Origin: a virus
IMG/VR virus record: IMGVR_UViG_3300037264_008423
Coordinates: 1-64,000 of that record
Direction: 5' to 3' (one strand)
DNA: 64,000 nt
Part shown: one piece after another, positions 8,464 to 59,987 of the stretch
How positions within the stretch are numbered: position 1 is the first letter of the stretch
How the letters are laid out: every line of letters begins with the position of its first letter
The notes under the pieces: generated by a model
What the model was told of the DNA's origin: nothing
Database searches by the model: none
What the model saw: the letters and a program-made list of their open reading frames with translations, nothing else
Position numbers and translations under genes: made by a program

Positions 8464-9879
8464 ATGCGCTCACTGACTTTCCAGCAACTTATGGAGATTG
8501 TCGAGCCTCTGGAGCCGCTCCAGGAGGTTTTGACATTTGATCAGCTTTTCAAAATGTCCGAGCCGAAGCGCGGAATCCGAGCTGACCACGTGCATATGCC
8601 GCCTTTGGAGATGGAGCAGTATCAGACGCCAAACCACTGGGTATTCGCTTACTTCTTCAACGCCAAATCTGACCCCGGCTGGTCCACCACCGGTCTGCGC
8701 CATCGCGGTTTTATCCGGTTTCGCAAACCGAAACGCGGCCACAAAGGCGAAAACACGCCGCTGGCGCTGCTGCCCGTGGAAGTGGACTGCATGTGCCCGG
8801 ACTACCGTTACCGCTGGGCCTGGGCTAACCATCAAAAGAGAGCGGGTCCCATCGGACCCAGTTCCTTAAACCAGTGCATTGCGCGCGCCCCACGCAAAAC
8901 CAATCCCCTGGGCAAGCCTGGACTTTGTAAACATATTTTAGCCACGCGCGAGTATATCTACGGCCTGCTTACTGGATTCCCGGAAAACGTGGGTCCTGCG
9001 GACCGCCTGGATAAGCTTACGCGCCGGGCCACGCGACGCTGGCTCAATTTGGATGCGGAGATCGCGGCGGCACGAGAGCGGGATGCGCAGATCGCGGCGG
9101 CTAAAGCGCGCCGAAACATCGGTGTGCCGCCCCCGCACCAGGGGCATTTAATCAACCACCTGGAAGTGGAGGAACCGCCTCCCCTGCCTGAACTGCCTGA
9201 TGTCGCGGACCAGGTTCAAGCACCGCAGCCGCCCCAACCGCCGCAGCCGCCCCAGGCTCCGGTTCCGCCCACCGTGGCCGCCGCGCACGCGCCGGAGCGC
9301 CGCGCTCGAACGCCTCTCAAGTCAAAACCAAAATCAAAACTAAAACCAAAACCTAAGACTAAAACCAAAGCGCAGCCCCCAGCCGCCCCGCCTCGCCGCA
9401 CCTTTTTGAAGCAAGGCCGATTTTCTAGCGGAGGTTCGCGCGAGCTGGAAGGAGTAGATAGTATGAAGAACATGAAAACTCTGTCGCTACAGGAAAATAA
9501 AAGAACGATCCAGGAAGCTCGAAGGCTGATCAACGAAATCGCTGGCGCTGGTCTGCCCGACGACGACGAGGGTCTGCCCGATGATACGGGGGCCATGCCG
9601 CCGCCCTCCGGCGAAGACATGCCTATGGAACCGCCCATCTCCGACAGCGCGATTGGCGCTTCCACCCAGGACAACGTGGCTTTGGGCCTGCTGGGGGAGA
9701 TTCGCGATCTGCTGGCCGAGTTAGTGGGCCAGGAGGGCGCGGAAGCGGACGTTCCGCCGATGCCGGATGAGGACCTGGACGCGGAGGGCTTGGGAGACGA
9801 GGAGGGGCCGGACCGGGAAGACGACGAGGATTTTCAGCCCGGAAAACGACCGATGCCTGTTCCCAGTGGCGTGGAATAA
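8464..9879 (+). CDS. SWIM-type zinc-finger protein with Pro/Lys linker and acidic tail
   Basis: 471 residues. A CxC...CxH pattern (CMCPDYRYRW near residue 105 and LCKHILATREY near 158) fits a SWIM zinc finger, a DNA- or protein-binding fold. After it come a helical Ala/Arg-rich region, a proline repeat (QPPQPPQPPQ, about 255-267), a lysine repeat (KPKSKLKPKPKTKTK, about 285-300), then a strongly acidic C-terminal third. Similar SWIM proteins occur in other large phages, often near structural genes. The charge layout (basic then acidic) is unlike an enzyme and suggests a scaffold- or DNA-associated virion component, which is inference. Confidence 0.6.
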   Translation: MRSLTFQQLMEIVEPLEPLQEVLTFDQLFKMSEPKRGIRADHVHMPPLEMEQYQTPNHWVFAYFFNAKSDPGWSTTGLRHRGFIRFRKPKRGHKGENTPLALLPVEVDCMCPDYRYRWAWANHQKRAGPIGPSSLNQCIARAPRKTNPLGKPGLCKHILATREYIYGLLTGFPENVGPADRLDKLTRRATRRWLNLDAEIAAARERDAQIAAAKARRNIGVPPPHQGHLINHLEVEEPPPLPELPDVADQVQAPQPPQPPQPPQAPVPPTVAAAHAPERRARTPLKSKPKSKLKPKPKTKTKAQPPAAPPRRTFLKQGRFSSGGSRELEGVDSMKNMKTLSLQENKRTIQEARRLINEIAGAGLPDDDEGLPDDTGAMPPPSGEDMPMEPPISDSAIGASTQDNVALGLLGEIRDLLAELVGQEGAEADVPPMPDEDLDAEGLGDEEGPDREDDEDFQPGKRPMPVPSGVE

Positions 9880-9917
9880 ACGCGCACGACGACGACCAAT
9901 CTTAACCGAATTGAGAT

Positions 9918-10403
9918 ATGACACCAGGCGCATACGTTGAACCGCTGATCAGAACAACATGGGTCCAAGTCCCGATGGTGTCGGGCTACGTGGCCAGCCG
10001 ATTGCGCATCGCTGACTACTCATTCGGCACCAACTACACCGGTTTAAATCTGGAAGATAACCAGGTGCATTTCACCGTGGAGAACGCGAGCACGGGCACC
10101 ACGGTTTTCTTGCAGGTCCAATCCACCTACGATCCGAGCGCAACGGCCACGCGCACGGCCCTTACCGCTGAGTATGGCGTAACTCCACAGGGAAAACGGG
10201 TGTTTGACTTTTGTGTTAACGCGCCCATTATCGAAATCAGATGCACGGGCGGCGGCGGCAGCATCCGGGCGCAGATCAGCTCTCGCTTGAAATGGGAGCA
10301 TATGGCAATGGATCGCCGCGACACGATGGCCGCGCCCACGCTGTATAATACCAAGTATGCCGGTCCCGGTGTGGTTGCACCGGCTCCTTTCCCCACGCCT
10401 TAG
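9918..10403 (+). CDS. hypothetical virion-like protein
   Basis: 161 residues, beta-rich with many small and polar residues (NASTGTTVFLQVQSTYD; TGGGGSIRAQISSRLKW), the composition of phage structural proteins. No family recognised. It converges with, and overlaps by 4 bp, the hub-like gene on the other strand. Sits between the SWIM-finger protein and the tail genes. Confidence 0.5.
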   Translation: MTPGAYVEPLIRTTWVQVPMVSGYVASRLRIADYSFGTNYTGLNLEDNQVHFTVENASTGTTVFLQVQSTYDPSATATRTALTAEYGVTPQGKRVFDFCVNAPIIEIRCTGGGGSIRAQISSRLKWEHMAMDRRDTMAAPTLYNTKYAGPGVVAPAPFPTP

Positions 10404-11743
10404 AATTTGGGGTTAGGGTTGGGGGCGCTGGAAGGGCTGCGACTGTCCACGAACACCGAAGTAAAGGTGGCTTGGCCCGATCCCCGCGTAATCCGGGAGC
10501 TTTGCACCGCTTTCAAATTGAGCGGCTGTCCGGGAGCGTCTTCCTCGTTCAGAATCACGTTGTCGCCGTAAATTTGAATGGAGGTATGGCGCGTGGAGCT
10601 AGTCTGAAATTCACCCCGTTTTACGATAAAAGAGGCGGTCACCGCGCCGCTCTCAATAACCGTGCAGGAATCGGTTACCAGGTAGGTTCCCGACCAGACT
10701 GTGTTTTTGCCGCTGACGGGGCTGATGGCGATGCGCAGAATGTCCCCGACTCTCAAGAATAGCGAACGGCTGATGTCCAACTTAAGTCCCAGCGCTTGGG
10801 AACGGGCGTTTTCGTAGATGCTCTGCGCCAAATGTTCCGCTTCCATTGGAGAATTAGTGGACAAATGATAAGGCATGGTGAACTCGGAACCCCGCACATT
10901 GGACAGTTTGTGCATGGTGTTGCCCAGGCGCAGCGCCTTGGCGGGATCGGACAGGACCTCTTTGCTTTGAGCGGTATAGGGATCGTAAACGACCAGCACC
11001 GCCCCGCTGGCCCCGTGCTCCAGTTGAGCCTGGCTCTCGTCCATCTGTGTCAGGCCCACAGTGTTGGCCTGGTAGTAGATCAGCTCCTTTAGCTCCGCGT
11101 GGTAATCGGGTGAATGGAAATGCAGGGTATTGTCCCGGATGTAGAGGCTGTAGTTTCCGCGCCCCTTGCCATTTACGGCACGGGGGAGAAGGCGGTGCCG
11201 GATAAAGTCAAAGTCGCTTTCAAAGCTCTGTATCCACATCCCCTCGCCCTCCGTGTCCTCGATGATAAGGCTGTTCAGGCCGTTTTCTCTGGCCAGTTGC
11301 TCCACGATGCGCGAGATCCGGCCACGGCGGGAAGTCACTCTGGCTTTACGGGCAATCGTCACGAGATGGTCTCCCAGGCTCATCCGGCAGTAGTGCCCGG
11401 CAGTGGTGCCCACGCCCTCCAGGATCGCGGTAAAATCTGAAATGATCTGGTCTTGCCAGGGCAAAAAGACCATGTTCCCCGGCAGTCCTATGCCCACGCG
11501 GTAGCGCAGCTTGGGCGTGCCCAGGGATTGAGCATGCCGGATGATATTGTCCACGTAGTCCGTGGAGGGCGCGCGGAACACCAGCTCATGCTCGCTGGGC
11601 TTTTTGATGGATTCGGTGATGGTGGAGCGGACATGAACAAGGTTCGCCCGGTTAAATGGAACGATCTTGCTATTGGGCAGCCGCAGTTCGGCCTCCACGA
11701 TAGCGCGTCCCTCGACGGTAGAATTGGCGGCAAGGTTGGGCAC
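10400..11743 (-). CDS. baseplate hub-like protein (gp27 / late control D type)
   Basis: 447 residues. Organisation resembles baseplate hub proteins that hold the central spike under the tail tube. It has an N-terminal tube-like beta domain (RAIVEAELRLPNSKIVPFNRANLVHV), a middle part with a helical insert (IVEQLARENGLNSLIIED), an aromatic segment typical of gpD-like hubs (FDFIRHRLLPRAV...LYIRDNTLHFH) and a C-terminal beta barrel (LFLRVGDILRIAISPVSG). Assignment rests on these patterns; a search against T4 gp27 and P2 gpD profiles would settle it. A 99-residue gene lies 4 bp upstream and is probably co-transcribed. The spike it would bind is encoded at 22916-23953. Confidence 0.6.
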   Translation of the reverse strand: MPNLAANSTVEGRAIVEAELRLPNSKIVPFNRANLVHVRSTITESIKKPSEHELVFRAPSTDYVDNIIRHAQSLGTPKLRYRVGIGLPGNMVFLPWQDQIISDFTAILEGVGTTAGHYCRMSLGDHLVTIARKARVTSRRGRISRIVEQLARENGLNSLIIEDTEGEGMWIQSFESDFDFIRHRLLPRAVNGKGRGNYSLYIRDNTLHFHSPDYHAELKELIYYQANTVGLTQMDESQAQLEHGASGAVLVVYDPYTAQSKEVLSDPAKALRLGNTMHKLSNVRGSEFTMPYHLSTNSPMEAEHLAQSIYENARSQALGLKLDISRSLFLRVGDILRIAISPVSGKNTVWSGTYLVTDSCTVIESGAVTASFIVKRGEFQTSSTRHTSIQIYGDNVILNEEDAPGQPLNLKAVQSSRITRGSGQATFTSVFVDSRSPSSAPNPNPKF

Positions 11744-50629: not shown

Positions 50630-51124
50630 ATGGCTGAGATTCGACTATTACGTGGACAAACTGCTCTTATTGACGATGAAGATCTGCCGAGAGTGGCTGG
50701 CTTTCGTTGGCGTTTGAGCAGCGAAGGCTATGTCGTAGCCAGTCAGGGGTCCCGTCAAAGAGGAACCTTTAAAACAGTCCTGCTGCACCGAGTTATCAGG
50801 CAGACACCGCCCGGTCTGGAGACAGACCACGTAAACACTTTAAGTAGGCTCGATAATAGAAAGTCCAATCTGCGCACAGCCACGAAAAGCCAGAATCAAG
50901 GTAATCGCAAGCCTAACTCTAATGGTATTACTTCACGTTTTAAGGGTGTTTACTGGTATAGCCGAGATGGTTGCTGGAAGGCATCTGGTCCTAAGATGAA
51001 TCGAGCCGGTAAAGTCACTCAGGGGCACCTTGGATTTTTTGAGGCCGAGGAAGACGCTGCTCGCGCCTACAACAAAGCGGCTCTCGCACATTGGGGAGAG
51101 TTTGCGTGTCTTAATAGCGTTTAA
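50630..51124 (+). CDS. HNH homing endonuclease with AP2 domain
   Basis: 164 residues. N-terminal strand module (IRLLRGQTALIDDEDLPRVAGFRWR), HNH core (LLHRVIRQ, LETDHVNTLSRLDNRKSNLR, TKSQNQGN) and AP2 domain (FKGVYWYSRDGCWKASG, EAEEDAARAYNKAALAHWGEFACLN). Close in layout to the protein at 41302-41751. The coding frame of the downstream GT9 gene appears to begin directly after this gene without a normal start codon, suggesting the endonuclease displaced that start. Confidence 0.88.
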   Translation: MAEIRLLRGQTALIDDEDLPRVAGFRWRLSSEGYVVASQGSRQRGTFKTVLLHRVIRQTPPGLETDHVNTLSRLDNRKSNLRTATKSQNQGNRKPNSNGITSRFKGVYWYSRDGCWKASGPKMNRAGKVTQGHLGFFEAEEDAARAYNKAALAHWGEFACLNSV

Positions 51125-51237: not shown

Positions 51238-52452
51238 GTGCTCGCCCACCAGCAGTTTACCCGCATTATGCAGGAGCAGGCCATCCAGCAACGCTGTTTT
51301 AAGGTAAGCCGGATCGAGAACCGTATCCCTAACTTTAACGCGCTTCACCATAAGCCTGGCAGCCAGCGCCTTCTGCTCTACAACGGCAGCGGCGGCTACG
51401 GCGACCAGATTATGACTTGGCCCTTTGCGCGCATCCTCGCCAGCTACGGCTTTGAGATTCACATCTTGAACGATCCCGGCAACCAGACGTGCTGGTGGAA
51501 TTTCCCCTGGATCAAATCCATTCAGGCTATTCCCATGCAGTATGAGCAGTTCAAGATGTTCGACTACTGGTGTCTCATGGAGGCGGTGGTCAACTGCGAT
51601 GAACACCAGGACCAGCAACACCCGCTGGATGTCATGCTGGCCAAGGTGGGTATCGATCCCAACAGTATTGAACCCAAACTCAAAGTGGTGCGCCCTAACT
51701 TCACCTGGCTGGAAATGCAGTCGGTAAATCAGTTCCAGGGCAAGATCTTCGGCATGTATCAATTGGCCGCCGCCAATCCGATCCGGTGCCTGCCGCCCAG
51801 CGACAGTGTGTTTTTGCTGAGCAAGCTGGCGGATGCGTTCCCGGAAATTCATTGGCTGGCGCTTTACGACGAATTTATCCCGGAACCCTACAGGCAGTCC
51901 GTGGCCTGTCCCAAATGCCAGGGCGGCGGCAAAGTGGAAAAGATGCCGGAGGCCATTCCCGCGTCCTTTACAGGCACCAGCACCGGCTCTATCGAGGGTG
52001 ACCTGGCGCTGGCCACGGCGACGGTTCTGGAAGCCCAAAAGCCGGTGCAGGAAATCTGCGCCAAATGCAAGGGTTCAGGCACCATCCGGCCTAATATCCA
52101 ACTCTTTACCGCACTGGCCCTGCGGGACCTGTGGGCCTTGGCGACCAAGGCGGCGGTGGTCGTGGCCCCGGACTCGATGATGGTCCACGTGGCGGGATCG
52201 ATGGACGTGCCCTGCGTGGGGCTGTGGGGACCCTGCAATCCCGCTAACCGGGCCAAATACTACAAAAACCATTTTGCCGTCTGGAAGCGCGAAGCCTGTC
52301 CTTTTGCTCCTTGTTTCGCCTACGGCGGCGCGTTTCCGCGCTACTGTCCGCCGCGCACCAATCGCACGGTATGCGAGTGTTTGGGCGCGGTCGCCCCCCA
52401 GGAAGTCATCGACGCGGTGAAGCCTTTCGTCACGCCGCAAAAACCGACCTAA
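51238..52452 (+). CDS. GT9-family glycosyltransferase-like protein with two CxxCxGxG zinc knuckles
   Basis: 404 residues from GTG 51238, but the same frame is open back to 51118 and reads like coding sequence (FAEPVAINFKKSAG, TLTFEAGRDYVLAHQQF), so the real N-terminus may be longer and its start lost. Body: LLLYNGSGGYGDQIMTWPFARIL (GT9 opening), then VVVAPDSMMVHVAGSMDVPCVGLWGP (GT9 donor-site region). Between them two DnaJ-like zinc knuckles (CPKCQGGG near 222, CAKCKGSG near 276) are inserted. Cys-rich end (CPFAPCF, CPPR, CEC). Probably modifies a surface glycan; role of the zinc insert unknown. Confidence 0.65.
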   Translation: MLAHQQFTRIMQEQAIQQRCFKVSRIENRIPNFNALHHKPGSQRLLLYNGSGGYGDQIMTWPFARILASYGFEIHILNDPGNQTCWWNFPWIKSIQAIPMQYEQFKMFDYWCLMEAVVNCDEHQDQQHPLDVMLAKVGIDPNSIEPKLKVVRPNFTWLEMQSVNQFQGKIFGMYQLAAANPIRCLPPSDSVFLLSKLADAFPEIHWLALYDEFIPEPYRQSVACPKCQGGGKVEKMPEAIPASFTGTSTGSIEGDLALATATVLEAQKPVQEICAKCKGSGTIRPNIQLFTALALRDLWALATKAAVVVAPDSMMVHVAGSMDVPCVGLWGPCNPANRAKYYKNHFAVWKREACPFAPCFAYGGAFPRYCPPRTNRTVCECLGAVAPQEVIDAVKPFVTPQKPT

Positions 52453-52494: not shown

Positions 52495-54300
52495 ATGATC
52501 CGCATTAGCGAGGGACCCACGAAAATCAAACTGATCGGACCGGACGCGGAAATTCGCGCCCTGGCCGACCAGATGCGCGTTCGGCCCAAGGGATTCGAGC
52601 ACGCCCCCACCTACAAAGCTTGGGTCTTGACGGACGGTAAAGAAGGCTGGGATGGTTACGTCAACGCCCTTCGTTTACTGGACGAGGGGCAGGCGGACTG
52701 TCTGCGCGGCCACAAAGACACCCTGATTGCCATCGCGCACCGGAAGAACATCCTGCTGGACCTGAGCCGGTGTCTGAAGTCCCCTTTTGCCGCGCTCGTG
52801 TCCGATGACGTGCCCCCGGACATTATCGTGGCCAATTTCAAGCTCGACCAGTATCAGCGGGAATCCGTGGCCTACTGGCTAAGTCACGGGATGGGGGTGA
52901 ATAAAATCGCCGTTAACGGCGGTAAGACCGCCATGTTCGCCGCCGCCGCCGCCATGATCCTGCGGCGCTACCCGGAGGCGCGCGTGCTCTACGTGACCCA
53001 AAGCGAGCGCCTGGTCCGGCAGGCTTACCGGGATATCAAGGGCTTTTTACCGGGCTTGGAGGTTACCCAGTTTGGCGGCAGCAAAAAGGACCGTTCCGGC
53101 AAGGACATCGTGATCGCGACCGTGGCCATGCTCACGCGCCATCGCCTGGAATTGGTCAACGAGGAGTGGTTTCGCGGCTTTATGGCGGTGCTCTACGACG
53201 AATCCCACCACGCCGCCGCCGCGACCAGCACGCAGCTCCTTATGAGTCTGCCCTGCTTTTTCCGGCTGGGGGCCTCCGACACGCGCCACGACAACGACCC
53301 CGCCAAGGCCGCCAAGGTTCAGGGGTTGCTGGGTCCCATCCGCTACGTGGTTCCCGTGGGAACTTATATCGACCTGGGCCGCTCGGCCCGGCCCACCATC
53401 TACCTGGTGGAAAATAGCCGCTGGCATAACCGGCACAAAAACTTGCCGTATCAAGCGGAGCCTTACACCCCCGCTTGGGCGCTGGTGGGAAGCGAGTGGA
53501 AGCACGGCACTTACCTGGGACCCGTGTATCAACTTGATGATCAAGGCCAAGTGGTGATGCGCCGGGTGCGCGAGCTAAAAGGCGCGGAGGAGCAGGAGGT
53601 TTATGATGGCGAGGGCACCCCGGACACCGTAAAAGTAGCGGAATGGGAGTGGGTGGAAAAGCCCGTAACCGTGGACGGCTATCACACGCTGCAATTTGAC
53701 GATGACGAGGCTGAATATACCGTGGACTCGCGCTATTGCCTCTTAAGGCGCGTGTATGACAAGGCCATTACCTCGTTTAAAGAGCGCAACGCGCTGATTA
53801 CCGCCTGGACGCGCTACTACGCCCAGGAAAAACACTTTCCCACGCTCGTGGTCTGCACCCGGACCATGCACGTCCTGATTCTGGAGGCGCTGATCCAGGA
53901 CGCGCTAGGCCAGGATCGGGTCAAAGTCCTGTTCAGCGACCATACCTCGGCCCAGCGCGATGAAGTGTTTGCCTGGTTTCGCGGGGGTCAAGGCCGGGTG
54001 CTGGTTAGCCCCCTGGTGAAAGAGGGCGTGTCCATCAACGAGATCTGCGGAGGCGTCATCGCTGACTACGTGGGCGACTGGGAAGTCATGAACCAGATCA
54101 TAGGCCGGTTTATCCGCAAAAAAGCCGGGGACAACCAGGCGTTTATCACCGCCTTTATCGACGTTCAGCACCCCTCCTTGCGCCGGGGTTGCCGCCGCGT
54201 CTATAACAAGCTCCACGATGTGCGGGGTTACCAGTTCTATCACCCCTGTATTGGACCCGAAACGATTCCGCTGGCTAAAGAGTTCAAGTGCCTGGCTTAA
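52495..54300 (+). CDS. superfamily 2 DNA helicase (UvsW-like)
   Basis: 601 residues. Helicase comparable to T4 UvsW, which remodels recombination and replication-fork intermediates. Motifs: KLDQYQ (about 116-121), P-loop NGGKT at 141-145, LYVTQSERLVRQA (Ia), DESH at 235-238 (II), LGASDTRHD (III), RVLVSPLVKEGVSI (V) and NQIIGRFIRKK (VI). The first 100 residues form a small N-terminal domain. A roughly 90-residue insert between domains (YDGEGTPDTVKVAEWEWVEKP region) is notable. The P-loop lacks the usual second glycine. Confidence 0.9.
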   Translation: MIRISEGPTKIKLIGPDAEIRALADQMRVRPKGFEHAPTYKAWVLTDGKEGWDGYVNALRLLDEGQADCLRGHKDTLIAIAHRKNILLDLSRCLKSPFAALVSDDVPPDIIVANFKLDQYQRESVAYWLSHGMGVNKIAVNGGKTAMFAAAAAMILRRYPEARVLYVTQSERLVRQAYRDIKGFLPGLEVTQFGGSKKDRSGKDIVIATVAMLTRHRLELVNEEWFRGFMAVLYDESHHAAAATSTQLLMSLPCFFRLGASDTRHDNDPAKAAKVQGLLGPIRYVVPVGTYIDLGRSARPTIYLVENSRWHNRHKNLPYQAEPYTPAWALVGSEWKHGTYLGPVYQLDDQGQVVMRRVRELKGAEEQEVYDGEGTPDTVKVAEWEWVEKPVTVDGYHTLQFDDDEAEYTVDSRYCLLRRVYDKAITSFKERNALITAWTRYYAQEKHFPTLVVCTRTMHVLILEALIQDALGQDRVKVLFSDHTSAQRDEVFAWFRGGQGRVLVSPLVKEGVSINEICGGVIADYVGDWEVMNQIIGRFIRKKAGDNQAFITAFIDVQHPSLRRGCRRVYNKLHDVRGYQFYHPCIGPETIPLAKEFKCLA

Positions 54301-54318
54301 CTGGTTCTGGCTCTCCGT

Positions 54319-55074
54319 ATGACTGGAACCAGAATAATTTTAGAAAGTTTACCGGTAAGAGCGCGCGATGTGCCCCAAGACACTGTGCTGCGCGTCGAGA
54401 CACTCCCGGAAGACAAGCTGCATCTGTTTAGCACGGAAGTGGCTGAAACGCACGGTATTGCTGCTGCTGTCGTGTATCAATACTTTACCTGGCACTGCCG
54501 CAAGTTCGGTCAATGGACCGGCACGATGGACCAGTTGCTCAAAGTGTTTCCCTACCTCTCGCGTAAAGAGCTGCGCCTGGTCCTGCACAAGCTCTTGGGA
54601 GAGCGCGCTGGTTACGCCACGCTCCTCCACCGCCACGCCGTGGCCAGCCAGTTCAGCTACACACTGACGGTCCGGGTCCGGGGTCAAAAGCTGCACGCGC
54701 TTGACCCCAAAATGGCCCAGGCCCACGGACTGCTGGCCGCTGTGGTCTATGATAACGTGGTCTTTTGGATCGCGCGCTCGGAAGCCGAGGGCGAGTCCGA
54801 GCCAGTCCACTACGCGTCCCCTCGCGCCTGGCGCGAAAACCACCCCTACGCCGCCCTGCGTTCGGTGGCTCGTGCTTTTCAAAGCCTGCAACAGGCGGGA
54901 GAACTGGTCATCGCGGCGCGCCGGGAAAACCGGATGCCGGTTTGGACTTTGCCTCTAGGGCTGGGCAAACTGGATCGCTGGCACCGGCTTCACCGCCAGG
55001 TGAAGCGGGAAAGCGTAAGCGCCGATCCCAAGGTAAAATATGTTTACGTTCCTGTGCTGGATGACCCTGACTGA
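54319..55074 (+). CDS. tandem winged-helix protein, candidate replication initiator
   Basis: 251 residues. Two similar domains: residues about 34-95 (LHLFSTEVAETHGIAAAVVYQYFTWH, QLLKVFPYLSRKELRLVLHKLL) and about 125-195 (LHALDPKMAQAHGLLAAVVYDNVVFWI, AALRSVARAFQSLQQAGEL). Both follow the helix-turn-helix plus wing pattern of replication-initiator and DnaD-like proteins. Directly downstream, after 19 bp, are four 21-bp direct repeats and three hairpins, the arrangement of an iteron-regulated origin. Function is inferred from the fold resemblance and the adjoining repeats. Confidence 0.55.
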   Translation: MTGTRIILESLPVRARDVPQDTVLRVETLPEDKLHLFSTEVAETHGIAAAVVYQYFTWHCRKFGQWTGTMDQLLKVFPYLSRKELRLVLHKLLGERAGYATLLHRHAVASQFSYTLTVRVRGQKLHALDPKMAQAHGLLAAVVYDNVVFWIARSEAEGESEPVHYASPRAWRENHPYAALRSVARAFQSLQQAGELVIAARRENRMPVWTLPLGLGKLDRWHRLHRQVKRESVSADPKVKYVYVPVLDDPD

Positions 55075-55093
55075 TCACAGTTTCAGTTAAATT

Positions 55094-55177
55094 CTCGATG
55101 CCAAAAGGTAACCCCTCGATGCCAAAAGGTAACCCCTCGATGCCAAAAGGTAACCCCTCGATGCCAAAAGGTAACCC
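55094..55177 (+). repeat. four tandem 21-bp repeats (iteron-like)
   Basis: Four perfect head-to-tail copies of a 21-bp unit whose first 20 bases, in one phasing, are TCGATGCCAAAAGGTAACCC. The 21-bp period equals two helix turns, so a bound protein would sit on one face of the DNA. No gene covers them. Placement beside the tandem winged-helix gene suggests iterons of an origin. Confidence 0.85.
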
Positions 55178-55247
55178 CAAACTGCCATTTCGACCAATGC
55201 CAGAGGGCCTGAAGTCGCTCCGTTTAACGTATTGTTGTAAGTAGGTT

Positions 55248-55329
55248 AATTTCCTGCGGAAATTTTCAAAACCCATTGAAAGTATTTCGACAGGACCAAA
55301 AAGGTCCTGTGCGAGGCTCCGCCCGGAGC
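55248..55329. other. cluster of three hairpins in the non-coding gap
   Basis: The 292-bp gap 55075-55366 holds, after the iterons: the palindrome AATTTCC-TGC-GGAAATT (55248-55264); the inverted repeat ACAGGACC / GGTCCTGT with an A5 loop (55290-55310); and GCTCC-GCCC-GGAGC (55316-55329). Three strong structures next to tandem repeats are typical of replication origins or packaging/regulatory sites. No obvious promoter motif seen. Confidence 0.6.
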
Positions 55330-55366
55330 GATTAAATTTAAGTTTCATTCGACCGGTATTTAGAGC

Positions 55367-56245
55367 GTGGCAAAAGAGATCATCCAACATCTGCTGGAAG
55401 ACGACGATGAAAGCTGGAAGGACCTGGTGTCCTCGGCGGACAACGCCGCTTATCCGGCTGACTACGGAGAAGCCCTCTACCTTTACGATGAATCAGGTCG
55501 GGTCATTGCCTCTTCCCGGAATCTGGCAGGCATTCGGCGCTACGTTTCCCGGCAGCCCGTTCAGTCGGTTCACATCCATGACCTGGGTAAAGGCGAGGGT
55601 GGGATCAAGGTGGTCTTTCTCAACAACTGGTTTTGGCTGGGACGCTTCGCTTCCTTTGGGGTATTAACATGGTCCCTGCGAAACTGGAGGAACCTTTACG
55701 GAGCCACGCTCTTTGTGAACGGACAGCCAGGAGGCCGGATCAGCTACCGGAACGCGGCGCTCCAGGAAGGCGAGGGGGATGATTTCGAGGTTAAAGATCT
55801 GGTGGGCGGGAATAGCGAGGAAGAGGTTACCCTGGATCAGATGAAGGCGGCGGAGCCAAACTTTTTCAGCCGGGAGACGAACCGGTTTTTCGGCACCAAA
55901 AAACTCTATCAGTATGGCAGCTACCTGGTGGTTAAAAATAAGCGAAGGATGCCCGGTTACTTCGGAGGCACGGTGGATTCCACAAAATTTATCATCTACC
56001 GGTTTATGCGGACGGAAAACAGTCCCCAGGGCGTGATCATGTATCAGCAGGAAGCCCCTGACTTACAGACGGCCAAGGCCATGATCAAGGCTCAGGACTT
56101 TCGACCCTGGCGGGAGCAGTTCCGGGCGCGCCTCGGACTGCCGGAGTCCGAGGCGTTACGCTTACGCGCCGGAGGGACTGTGGCGCTGGTATCAGGAACA
56201 CAAAGGAAGGATTCAGCATGGCAGTTAGACAGCCCGTCTATTTAG
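55367..56245 (+). CDS. hypothetical protein with DDFEVKDL motif
   Basis: 292 residues, GTG start following the hairpin cluster. N-terminal domain (LYLYDESGRVIASSRNL, QSVHIHDLG), then a beta-rich region with a Trp-rich segment (FLNNWFWLGRFAS). The motif DDFEVKDL occurs near residue 138 between the two halves. The C-terminal half has FFSRETNRFFGTKKLYQYGSYLVVKNKRRMPGYF and IIYRFMRTENSPQGVIMYQQE. The same motif occurs repeatedly in the large protein downstream. The 3' end overlaps the next gene by 28 bp. No family recognised. Confidence 0.5.
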   Translation: MAKEIIQHLLEDDDESWKDLVSSADNAAYPADYGEALYLYDESGRVIASSRNLAGIRRYVSRQPVQSVHIHDLGKGEGGIKVVFLNNWFWLGRFASFGVLTWSLRNWRNLYGATLFVNGQPGGRISYRNAALQEGEGDDFEVKDLVGGNSEEEVTLDQMKAAEPNFFSRETNRFFGTKKLYQYGSYLVVKNKRRMPGYFGGTVDSTKFIIYRFMRTENSPQGVIMYQQEAPDLQTAKAMIKAQDFRPWREQFRARLGLPESEALRLRAGGTVALVSGTQRKDSAWQLDSPSI

Positions 56246-56643
56246 CAGTTCATCAGATCAATAATCTGCACCGGCCCGTGCTGTCCTACGAGCAGATCGT
56301 CTTTCTGGCGACCAAAGGGAACTGGCTGATCAACGCCGAGCTAAAACAGGCTCCCATTGACCGGGAATTGGGCCAGGGAGACTGTCATGTGTGCGCCGGT
56401 CAGGGGGTGGCTGATCTGGACCGGGTGGAGCGCCTGATGAACGCCTATCCCTGGGGCCGATTCTCGGTGGACGTGGGCGGACCGGACAGCTATTCTCAGT
56501 TCATTTACATTGGCACGAACGACATCGGCACTTGGCGCGCCAAATATATCGAAACCTGGGGCACCGTCAACCGGCCTCCTTATTGGCAAAATGACGTGGA
56601 AACTATCGTCGTAGGAGGCACACAAGGAACACAATGGCCTTAG
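56218..56643 (+). CDS. hypothetical protein
   Basis: 141 residues. N-terminal helical strand mix (YLAVHQINNLHRPVLSYEQIVFLATKGNWLI), a CxxC (CHVCAG) with acidic context near 58-63, then FIYIGTNDIGTWRAKYIETWGTV. Overlaps both neighbours by short stretches, implying coupled translation of a three-gene unit. Not recognised. Confidence 0.5.
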   Translation: MAVRQPVYLAVHQINNLHRPVLSYEQIVFLATKGNWLINAELKQAPIDRELGQGDCHVCAGQGVADLDRVERLMNAYPWGRFSVDVGGPDSYSQFIYIGTNDIGTWRAKYIETWGTVNRPPYWQNDVETIVVGGTQGTQWP

Positions 56644-59006
56644 GAGATTTTGAGACCAAGGACCTGATGGACGACTTTAGCTGGCTGAGACCCGGCACGG
56701 TGGTGATCGCCAACCTTCCCCCCGACCAGGGCGGCACGCAACTGGCCAGGGTGGAGTGGGTGGGCCGGGAAAAGGGTAAAGCCTACCTCAGAGCGTCCGG
56801 TAGCGTGCTGACCGTGCCTTTGACCGGCAATATCGTCCAGCCGCTTCCTGGGATTCAAGAGAGCCAGGACGAGGATGATTGCGAGGCCAAGGACTTGGAC
56901 AACGACTATGCCTGGATAAAGGTGGGGGCTAGAATCATCGCTCCGTCTGTTCAATATGCTGACTTCATTCCGGGGAAGGTTACAAAAGTTTACCGGGAAC
57001 AGTATGGGCGCAGCTATGCGTTTGTTCAGTTTGAGGGCAAAACCGGGTATGGCAGCGGCGCGGTGGTGGAATTAGAGCGTCTCAGGCCGATGGTTCAAGA
57101 GGGCTTGGAGGACGATGACTTTGACCTAAAAAGCCTGGATGCGGAAAAACCGGTCGAATCACGCCAGGAATGGGCCAAGCAAAATCTCTACTGGGACCAG
57201 GAGCGGGGTATGTGGGAGATCCCCGACACCGGCTACAGTTCCGCCGAGCCAGGCACCGTGAGTCATGCCAACCATCTCTTTCTGCACCGGCTGATGCCGT
57301 GGCTGGAGCAAGAGGGAAACGAACTGAATCTGCGCCTGTTTATGAAGCCGGAGCACTTGGACTGGATGCCCTTGTGGAATCCTTTTAAGGATTACGTGAA
57401 GAGCATGGCCAGCTTCAATGTCCTGGACCAGGATACGATGGATGAAATCGTTGAAAAATCCTTTCGGTATTACTGGGGCCAGCACTACGCGCTGGCCTTC
57501 GCGGACGCGCTCCTGGACCGGTTTGGCGATCAAGTCCGAAGCGCCGACCCGCAGAAAGACTTCCAGTTGTTTGCCATCAGCAACAAGGGCTACGAATTTT
57601 TCAGCCAGGCGGCTTCCGCCGCTGACGAGTATTGGGACACGGATGGCCGGACCCCCACGATTGGCGTGGAACGGGTGGTGAACACGCTGACCTGGCCCCA
57701 GGTCCAGGCGGCGGTGTATCCACAGCGCGACCAGCTTGGCCTGGATTTAGGCGACCAGCGCCCTCCGTCCAGCCAGTTGGACATGTTCGAGGCGGCGGAA
57801 GGGGAGCCGGACGAGGACTCGAACATGCTCAAGGACATGTCGGATACCACTCCAGTCCAGGTGAAGGAGTGGCTGGAGGAAAACCTGGTATGGGAGCCTT
57901 ACCTGGAACTGTGGGAGTTGGCTGGTTATTCGGACTATAGCGGTTCGCTCGTGGACCGGGCCAATGGCGAGTATTGGCAGAAGCACTACTCCTTTGTGAG
58001 TAAGGGTTATGGCGCGCACGGGGCTGAATGGTTGGGCATCAAGGAGGAGGATATCGCTCACATTGAGCCGGAGGAGTTCGAGCGTTTGAAAAAGGATTGG
58101 GAGGGTCTTTCCAACTATCCACTGCTCGACGAAGAAATACACAGCGCACTGGAGTCGGAATGGCGGCGCAAGGCATGGGAATACTGGTTGAGCCGGGAAG
58201 TCCGGGACCTGCTGGTAACCGAATTTCCTGGCTACGAGGAAGCGCTGCTTGACTTTGTGGGCACGGATCGCGCTTTTGCCATGTTCGAGGAAGCGCGCGA
58301 CCTTGCCGGGGAAGAGTGGTCCGAGGAATCGGGCGGCGACCAGACCGTCAACTATGAGAGCGTGGTGGAGCACATTGGCGAGGATATGCTGCGGCGCTGG
58401 ATGTTCCCGGAAGAGGCGGAAGCTCAGCCCGAACTGCCCTTGGAGGAAGCCTACCAATACTCCTGTGTGATGGCTCCCGCGCCCGAAGACTTGGCCAGCG
58501 CCGTCCGGAGCTGGAGCCACATGCACGTTACAGATGATGAGTTATACCTGGGAGAAAAGGGTGACAAAGGCCGCGAAGATGAACCACATGTGACCGTGCT
58601 CTTTGGACTGCACTCGGCTAGCCCCGACCCGGAAGTGCTGCGCCTGGTGGAGGAGACTCAGCCCCTTGAGATCCAGGTGGGCACGGCTTCCCTGTTTGAG
58701 GATTCGGCTGACTACGACGTGCTTAAGTTTGATGTGGAGAGCGAGGGTTTGACCGCGTTGAATGCTAAGTTCCGGGAGATGCCCCACACCAATACGCGTG
58801 CGGGATATCACCCCCACTTAACCGTGGCCTACGTCCAAAAGGGGACGTGCCGGGAGCTGGTGGGCAAGCCGCTGATCGAGGCGGCGGAGCCAAGTCAATT
58901 GCGCTTTTTGGTTAAGTCTTTGATATTCAGCGGTAAAGGCGAGGCGAAGCGGAAATGGCGACTGACTCTGGGCCAGTCCAAGGCAGAGGATTTCCAGGAG
59001 GATTAA
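56634..59006 (+). CDS. multidomain protein: KDL-motif modules and C-terminal 2H phosphoesterase
   Basis: 790 residues. Two SH3/KOW-like modules each begin with the motif (GDFETKDLMDDFSWL at 4-18; DDCEAKDLDNDYAWI near 82-96). A third motif, DDDFDLKSL near 162, starts a helical module (EWAKQNLYWDQERGMWEI) echoed near 400 (MLKDMSDTTPVQVKEWL...). The C-terminal 160 residues form a 2H phosphoesterase, with H652-x-T654 (PHVTVLFGL) and H728-x-T730 (PHLTVAYV). 2H enzymes cleave 2',3'-cyclic or 2'-5' phosphodiester and cyclic-nucleotide bonds; the phage anti-CBASS enzyme Acb1 is one. The KDL motifs may be linkers or processing sites (inference). Possibly an injected virion protein. Confidence 0.7.
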   Translation: MALGDFETKDLMDDFSWLRPGTVVIANLPPDQGGTQLARVEWVGREKGKAYLRASGSVLTVPLTGNIVQPLPGIQESQDEDDCEAKDLDNDYAWIKVGARIIAPSVQYADFIPGKVTKVYREQYGRSYAFVQFEGKTGYGSGAVVELERLRPMVQEGLEDDDFDLKSLDAEKPVESRQEWAKQNLYWDQERGMWEIPDTGYSSAEPGTVSHANHLFLHRLMPWLEQEGNELNLRLFMKPEHLDWMPLWNPFKDYVKSMASFNVLDQDTMDEIVEKSFRYYWGQHYALAFADALLDRFGDQVRSADPQKDFQLFAISNKGYEFFSQAASAADEYWDTDGRTPTIGVERVVNTLTWPQVQAAVYPQRDQLGLDLGDQRPPSSQLDMFEAAEGEPDEDSNMLKDMSDTTPVQVKEWLEENLVWEPYLELWELAGYSDYSGSLVDRANGEYWQKHYSFVSKGYGAHGAEWLGIKEEDIAHIEPEEFERLKKDWEGLSNYPLLDEEIHSALESEWRRKAWEYWLSREVRDLLVTEFPGYEEALLDFVGTDRAFAMFEEARDLAGEEWSEESGGDQTVNYESVVEHIGEDMLRRWMFPEEAEAQPELPLEEAYQYSCVMAPAPEDLASAVRSWSHMHVTDDELYLGEKGDKGREDEPHVTVLFGLHSASPDPEVLRLVEETQPLEIQVGTASLFEDSADYDVLKFDVESEGLTALNAKFREMPHTNTRAGYHPHLTVAYVQKGTCRELVGKPLIEAAEPSQLRFLVKSLIFSGKGEAKRKWRLTLGQSKAEDFQED

Positions 59007-59111: not shown

Positions 59112-59987
59112 ATGCGGGTTAGTAAACAAATTAAAAATGCGAACAGTATGAGTTATCAGCAAGCCCACGGAAATTACGACAACCGCCTGGAAGTGGTCAC
59201 GATCTGCCTGAACTACGGCGACTTCCTGGATCAAACGCTGCCTTTCAACCTGCCGCACGTTGACCGGATGGTGGTGGTCACCGGCCATAACGATCTGGTG
59301 ACCAGGGAAGTGTGCCGCAAGTGGTCGGTTGAATGCGTGGTGACCGACTGCTTTACCGAGCGGGGCGAGCAATTCAATAAAGGGGCCGCGATCAACGTGG
59401 GCCTGGGCGCGTTGCGCCAATTGGGCTGGATACTCCAGTTAGACGCGGATGTGGTCTTGCCCATCACCTTCCGCAACATGCTGGACAAATCCGCTTTGCA
59501 GCGAGATTGTCTCTACGGCGCGGAGCGGTGCTGTGTGAATGGCTGGGAGCAGTGGGCGCGCCTGAAGCGTGGTTGGCATGATAATCCACAGTTTGGATAC
59601 CGCTACCTGGTAAACACATCAGCGGAATATCCCCTGGGGGCTACGGTGGTTCATAAGCAGTTTGGCTATACTCCGGTTGGTTACCTGCAATTATTCCATA
59701 GCGCCTTTATTATGGAGCATGAGTTGCGCTATCCAGAGACGGAGGGAAGCGCCGAGAATATGGATGTTCAATGGGCGATTCGATGGCCCAGGAAAAATAG
59801 AATTTTGTTGCCTACGGTTCGAGTTTACCACTTGGACAGTGAAAATTCACCTATGGGCATCAATTGGCAAGGCAGGAAAACTAAACCGTTTACGCATGAT
59901 GGTGAAAAACTTAATGTTGGCGCGCCTTGCGGATACGGCTATGGATATGGATATGGATATGGATACGGCTACAGCCAAAATCGGTGA
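59112..59987 (+). CDS. GT-A glycosyltransferase with repeat-derived C-terminus
   Basis: 291 residues from ATG 59112 (GGAG just upstream; GTG 59103 and ATG 59148 are alternatives). GT2-like core: RLEVVTICLNYGDFLDQTL, GEQFNKGAAINVGL, DxD in LQLDADVVLP; later VYHLDSENSPMGINW. The last residues form GYGYGYGYGYGYGY, encoded by a hexanucleotide repeat, and look like an added tail where the HNH gene was inserted. The HNH gene begins in another frame inside this repeat. Confidence 0.75.
   Translation: MRVSKQIKNANSMSYQQAHGNYDNRLEVVTICLNYGDFLDQTLPFNLPHVDRMVVVTGHNDLVTREVCRKWSVECVVTDCFTERGEQFNKGAAINVGLGALRQLGWILQLDADVVLPITFRNMLDKSALQRDCLYGAERCCVNGWEQWARLKRGWHDNPQFGYRYLVNTSAEYPLGATVVHKQFGYTPVGYLQLFHSAFIMEHELRYPETEGSAENMDVQWAIRWPRKNRILLPTVRVYHLDSENSPMGINWQGRKTKPFTHDGEKLNVGAPCGYGYGYGYGYGYGYSQNR
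59931..59973 (+). repeat. GGATAT-type hexanucleotide repeat at a gene junction
   Basis: Seven hexamer units, about 43 bp, of GGATAC/GGCTAT/GGATAT form. Read in the glycosyltransferase frame it gives Gly-Tyr repeats; in the HNH frame it gives Met-Asp repeats and supplies four in-frame ATGs. Confidence 0.8.

Follow-up and report, generated by a model that had tools for sequence, protein, structure and literature searches.

Iterons of about two helical turns adjoin the genes of the Rep_3 initiators (RepE of F, RepA of P1 and Pi of R6K), and P1 is also a case of iterons in a large myophage. In bacteriophage lambda, ori is located within the O gene; its four iterons contain A-tracts and are accompanied by an AT-rich stretch and by sequences that may form hairpins (PMC7466680). 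Initiator and origin covary and swap in the PLE satellites (PMC8263062, PMC7145576). In T4, oriE carries 12-nt iterons that have no established role in initiation (PMC3016281), such that iterons in a large myophage are already on record; an initial annotation of the locus described here had called plasmid-type origins rare in large myoviruses, where iterons are, however, not unprecedented. Origin choice in large T4-type phages has been worked out largely for T4.

Our analysis concerns bases 1-64000 (the window, 64,000 bases) of a 238,436-bp virus record from a large, uncultured tailed phage. Its structural genes look T4-like (Portal_T4, 6.7e-15, with a tail sheath also present), and its replication genes include those for a DnaB-like helicase (172 kb) and a polymerase of PolA type (177 kb); a primase-like protein is encoded at 31.4 kb, and searches for PolB and for tRNAs found none. 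We consider it very probable that the locus listed in Table 1 is a replication origin of the initiator-iteron type, with a mode of action like that of lambda O/ori or of Rep/iteron plasmids, and infer both DNA binding and origin activity for this candidate. Four independent phages were compared, namely that of the window (G000) and three relatives, G005 (L016), G003 (L017) and G006 (L018, to which L015 is identical across 13.5 kb). These relatives, which are fragments, were reached through the tail sheath and an alignment of the helicase. Viral contigs scanned with the exact 21-mer repeat unit gave no match, and those scanned with the winged-helix protein alone or the helicase alone yielded no relatives; genome contigs scanned with two alignments likewise gave no match. 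Winged-helix initiator homologs were found in three phages only (G000, G005 and G003). A 32-bp blastn match to a T4-like endonuclease VII (E 0.02) was treated as spurious.

Table 1. Features of the candidate origin and its counterparts (positions in the window, unless a relative is named).
Feature	Coordinates	Strand	Remarks
SF2 helicase, UvsW/XPB-like	52495..54300	+	constant left border of cassette; phrog_16, 1.7e-38
Initiator candidate, 251 aa, ATG start	54319..55074	+	phrog_11233 and phrog_6493 matches; AF2 model
Winged-helix domain 1	residues ~34-118 of the 251-aa protein		
Winged-helix domain 2	residues ~124-212 of the 251-aa protein		short C-terminal tail after
Iteron array, 4 perfect 21-bp repeats CTCGATGCCAAAAGGTAACCC	55094..55177	+	100% identical copies
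AT-rich stretch, candidate unwinding element	55223..55290		69% AT vs window mean of 43%; segment chosen post hoc
Hairpin A, AATTTCC-TGC-GGAAATT	55248..55264	+	in L016 kept as CCCGC-TAT-GCGGG; 4/5 compared pairs double-changed
Hairpin C, ACAGGACC-AAAAA-GGTCCTGT	55290..55310	+	kept in L016; 3/8 compared pairs double-changed
Hairpin D, GCTCCG-CC-CGGAGC, inside conserved GCGAGGCTCC motif	55316..55329	+	in L016 one T-A to T-G, fits + strand pairing
Downstream gene, GTG start	55367..56245	+	constant right border of cassette; directly next in window, L016 (11536) and L018 (10722)
Array in L016 (G005)	11292-11375		four perfect copies of 21-bp unit TCACCGCCAAATTCACACCCC
Array in L017 (G003)	10576-10701		six units, 21-bp period

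Elsewhere in the window, we note a 790-aa protein (56634-59006) with a 2'-5' RNA ligase/phosphodiesterase-like domain (PF13563, 1.7e-10) towards its C-terminal end, a similar protein being present in relatives, and a glycosyltransferase-9-like protein (51238-52452), also found in G003, into which a pair of zinc motifs of DnaJ type (CPKC...CAKC) is inserted. A run of GGATAT hexamers at 59930-59968 encodes the GYGYGY tail that ends a 294-aa ORF.

The two similar winged-helix domains originally attributed to the 251-aa protein are borne out by a profile comparison, in which its two halves are homologous (E 2.8e-6, 61 columns), and by an AF2 model based on an alignment of three homologs (three rows), which contains two such domains with pLDDT values of ~80-96 over most of both (mean 68.9); a single-sequence model (pLDDT 37) was discarded as too poor. 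Two PHROG families are matched by the C-terminal half, phrog_11233 ('replication initiation protein', 1.7e-12) and, less strongly, phrog_6493 ('DnaD-like helicase loader', 3.1e-5), and the N-terminal half alone gives a weak match (0.0031) to the same part of the phrog_11233 profile, which the C-terminal winged helix of the L016 and G003 homologs also matches (7.7e-8 and 2.1e-11, respectively). Only positions 3-77 of the 297 in this profile are matched, and its full-length architecture, one winged helix plus a C-terminal partner region, is not reproduced here. A similarity in structure to initiators, which the initial annotation had proposed as a check, exists: the best BFVD match to the model is the predicted structure of a viral 'Replication initiator protein' (TM 0.51 over 221 columns, E 1.9e-5), but all PDB matches have E > 1e-3, the weak ones including RepE54 (aligned over both domains, ~216-227 columns, E 0.02-0.09, TM 0.33-0.46), the DnaD N-domain, a Rep-DNA complex (5kbj, E 0.12) and MarR-type regulators.

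The initiator families of Pfam and NCBIfam gave no match for the 251-aa protein, with no Pfam hit to RepA_N and none to Rep_3 (PF01051) at E 0.5, nor at E 1 for its homologs. By its sequence, the protein is related to the phage O/DnaD-like initiators, from which it differs by a domain duplication, and not to Rep_3 or RepA_N. For this reason, 'lambda-O-like' is at least as apt a label as the 'plasmid-like' of the initial annotation, of which the reading as an origin survives; a plasmid RepA, RepE or Pi, the proteins it had named for structure comparison, is not what the sequence indicates. PDB profile matches to Ika/Tako proteins, covering ~40 residues, were treated as spurious, and a plasmid hit (H21, Methylibium) considered as a Rep is instead a tRNA-ribosyltransferase-like protein. 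Because a diverged homolog lacks the first ~33 aa, the true start of the ORF may lie further in than the ATG at 54319. An inverted repeat, CTGGTTC...GAACCAG (54301-54331), spans the start of the initiator gene, and just within the gene lies a palindrome of 10 bp, TTACCGGTAA (54349-54358), which shares GGTAA with the iteron and could be an operator.

The repeat array is where it had been placed, with all coordinates confirmed: a 19-bp spacer (55075-55093) separates it from the initiator ORF, and the 292-bp non-coding gap (55075-55366, with the next ORF from 55367) holds both the array and three inverted repeats, hairpins A, C and D. The unit is two helical turns long and has an A4-centred TGCCAAAAGGTA half-symmetry. 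Since the record has no further copy of CTCGATGCCAAAAGGTAACCC, even when 3 mismatches are allowed, the array is far beyond chance. A survey of 324 kb from this phage, relatives and comparison phages gave just one other perfect array of at least three copies with a period of 12-44, that of L016, at the equivalent place. An array of 21-bp period lies directly 3' of the initiator gene in all three phages that have the gene, in agreement with the expectation that it would be kept in place in related phages (here, G005 and G003), and its unit sequence has diverged, as has the protein (59 and 32% identity to the window protein in G005 and G003, respectively). In the six-unit array of G003, 9 of the 13 core columns (YYGCAAASTCGGA) are invariant, compared to 1 of the 8 spacer columns. 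In an aligned frame, the units are CTCGATGCCAAAAGGTAACCC in the window, CTCACCGCCAAATTCACACCC in G005 and CTCACCTGCAAAGTCGGACCC for one G003 unit, such that the frame is kept and the middle differs, as would be expected if protein and site diverge together; this joint divergence is consistent with binding of the repeats by the initiator. We rejected a reading of the array as coding (MPKGNPS repeats in an ORF at 55098-55244, or a minus-strand ORF at 54908-55390), as a DNA site accounts better than a conserved peptide for the L016 repeats and for how core and spacer differ in L017.

Between the window and L016, the three hairpins differ by seven double changes and one T-G wobble, and yet stay paired, the wobble being compatible with pairing on the + strand (hairpin C was aligned manually across a bulge of one base in L016); this suggests selection on a single-stranded form, whether RNA or ssDNA. 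These hairpins may be terminator-like (hairpin D is also weakly so), origin RNA or priming structures. Singly, they are not rare, with 32 perfect 7-bp hairpins observed in the window vs ~27 expected. As a cluster, they give DNA folding z-scores against shuffles of -4.5 in the window, -3.3 in L016 and -1.4 in L017, and RNA folding z-scores of -3.8, -1.9 and -1.0, of which only that of the window is a clear improvement on shuffles. Only 0.4% of the 68-mers of the window are as AT-rich as the candidate unwinding element, and the DNA that follows the array in L016 is only 45% AT. No DnaA boxes were found near the locus.

The strongest functional argument is the replacement of this unit by another initiator type. 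In G006, a 290-aa HTH_36 protein (Pfam 2e-7), which is O-like and matches phrog_270 'replication initiation protein' (9.5e-9), sits between the same neighbours, the helicase on the left and the 292-aa-type gene on the right, and there is no winged-helix gene, no array and no hairpin cluster. The flanks of L016 and L018 share ~73-82% DNA identity on both sides, and this similarity ends and restarts at the cassette borders. In the records searched, of which the relatives are fragments, the initiator types are mutually exclusive, with the winged-helix type in G000, G005 and G003 only, and the HTH_36 type in G006 only. Dyad repeats such as ATGCCCGGTTTACCGGGCAT occur within the HTH_36 gene. Inside this gene, three 16-bp dyad repeats of the CCCGGTTTACCGGGCA type (L018:10142-10222) are a candidate for an O-like origin in the alternative cassette.

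The helicase at the left border is 61% identical in G003, and among solved structures it resembles XPBII (1.4e-8) and T4 UvsW (5.5e-7). As UvsW shuts down the R-loop origins of T4 (PMC3016281), the position of a UvsW/XPB-like helicase adjoining the candidate origin is suggestive, but no more than that. Two nuclease-type genes were observed in this region, namely an HNH/AP2-type endonuclease gene (50630-51124) two genes upstream of the helicase and, in L016, an HNH-like gene with no Pfam hit (9736-10440, minus strand) that is inserted where the helicase and initiator genes would otherwise adjoin; such genes may reflect homing close to the origin, or nucleases directed at it.

Over 0-104 kb, the cumulative GC skew is lowest at 53,472. 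When skew was taken at four-fold degenerate sites with a strand term to remove gene-strand effects (covering 144 of 238 kb), the best change point of the window phage fell at 53.4-54.7 kb, between the helicase and the initiator gene, with a step of +0.117 and an F of 39 that none of 1000 permutations attained. The shift has a common direction in genes of either strand and in intergenic DNA, and the skew at 218-238 kb resembles that on the side left of the change point. The values have no symmetric sign reversal, and early and late transcription zones could contribute to them. A skew change at the locus, as considered in the initial annotation, is thus present in the window phage after strand correction. 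G003 likewise has its best change point at the array, with a step of equal sign that lacks significance (p 0.87), and G006 has no step at its cassette. Skew is good evidence in the window phage only.

We weighed these observations against other explanations. The winged-helix protein could be a transcription regulator and the array an operator, either for the downstream + strand genes or for its own expression, considering that MarR-type folds also match the model, that there is a weak match to the phrog_357 repressor (E 0.1-0.2), and that the array is located between two genes. However, the top family matches are initiators, the replacement protein in G006 is of initiator type and no regulator, the array lies 3' of its own gene and ~190 bp ahead of the next, no sigma-70-like promoter or promoter-like site was found near the locus, and the skew step is not predicted by regulation. 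We therefore consider a purely regulatory locus unlikely, and note that initiators often autoregulate, such that this role could be additional to that of an origin. Similarly, winged-helix adaptors such as TubR bind iteron arrays adjoining their genes, a precedent for reading the array as a partition site (a parC/tubC-like centromere) and the protein as its adaptor. No ParA-type ATPase was, however, found in the record or the relatives searched, the neighbours are a helicase and genes without assigned function, and the protein has initiator homology, all of which makes a centromere very unlikely indeed.

The folding of the hairpin cluster as RNA in the window, together with the kept pairing on the + strand, would also be expected of a structured RNA (a leader, a terminator cluster or a copy-control RNA) unrelated to the protein. 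Such an element would account for the hairpins but not for the 21-bp arrays; it accompanies the initiator and is gone where the initiator is swapped, it has no match in Rfam, and its folding weakens in L016 and L017. We regard an independent RNA as very unlikely, while the hairpins may have an RNA role within the origin. Finally, the perfect copies suggest recent amplification or homogenisation, as would follow a chance tandem duplication beside a winged-helix gene, but the arrangement is common to three diverged phages, conservation is restricted to the core, and the one other perfect array is at the equivalent place. Because position and period are conserved, chance duplication is already refuted, and we give it practically no credence.

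Under the preferred reading as an initiator-iteron origin, the cassette would begin with the gene for the initiator, after which come the iterons that this protein recognises, then AT-rich DNA and the group of hairpins. The protein, through its two winged helices, would bind each 21-bp iteron and, with copies two helical turns apart, the bound proteins would stack on one face of the DNA. The resulting nucleoprotein complex would open the adjoining AT-rich DNA, and the phage replisome would be recruited to and loaded at the opened origin. More tentatively, and at somewhat under even confidence, we propose that in a lineage of large T4-type myophages the main start of replication lies at one exchangeable cassette, in which initiator and iterons co-diverge, and which is replaced as a whole by another pair of initiator and origin; nucleases that target origins might exert the selective pressure (there are HNH-type genes in the vicinity). 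If true, phages known for starting replication from R-loops and by recombination would include a group with a dedicated initiator-iteron mode. The three naturally occurring specificities (CTCGATGCCAAAAGGTAACCC, CTCACCGCCAAATTCACACCC and the core YYGCAAASTCGGA) would provide a directly testable initiator-origin recognition system, and the swap would mean that origins are exchangeable as modules in large phages, as has been reported for PLE satellites (PMC8263062). What stands out here is the cassette exchange and the skew evidence. Plasmid-like initiation has hardly been documented for T4-type phages, and a limited search of the open-access literature found no initiator-iteron origin described for a jumbo phage, although such a search cannot prove that none exists.

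Comparing the locus with lambda O/ori, both combine a sequence-specific phage initiator (with presumed binding in our case), four A-tract iterons, an AT-rich neighbour (here a segment chosen post hoc) and sequences able to form hairpins in one cassette. Unlike lambda, where the iterons lie inside the O gene, they are here 3' of the initiator gene, and the protein differs from O in having two winged helices, no evident long C-terminal loader-binding domain and, at E 0.5, no match among the initiator families of Pfam; the background is that of a large phage with T4-type structural genes and its own PolA and DnaB-like genes. The phrog_11233/phrog_6493 initiators (compared through proteins of Vibrio phage 31Fb.4, Pseudomonas phage 8P and Vibrio phage 1.112.O) have a homologous winged helix, followed by short A-tract direct repeats inside the gene, and a full-length phrog_11233 member is a Vibrio phage replication initiation protein whose gene adjoins that of a DnaC-like loader, near DnaB. 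However, these proteins have one winged helix and then another C-terminal region, whereas here only that N-terminal domain is matched and is duplicated, and their repeats are 2-3 imperfect copies vs the four perfect ones found here.

With the Rep_3 systems, the locus shares iterons of about two turns adjoining the gene and, by the AF2 model, two tandem winged helices in the protein, over both of which Foldseek aligns RepE54, but it differs from them in the weakness of its PDB matches, in the lack of a PF01051 hit and in that no ParA was found. At T4 oriE (RepEA/RepEB), direct repeats at even spacing are likewise found in a large phage of T4 type, and several T4 origins lie near composition shifts, a likeness to the skew step seen here, but the oriE repeats, unlike these, have no established link to a dedicated initiator (PMC3016281). 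PLE, in turn, is a satellite of phage ICP1 and not a phage of this kind, with an initiator of the RepA_N fold family and three copies of ~30-bp iterons; what the PLE RepA_N/ori pair has in common with the present locus is that the DNA-binding part and the iterons diverge jointly, that the modules are exchanged, and that the iterons are centred on A-tracts.
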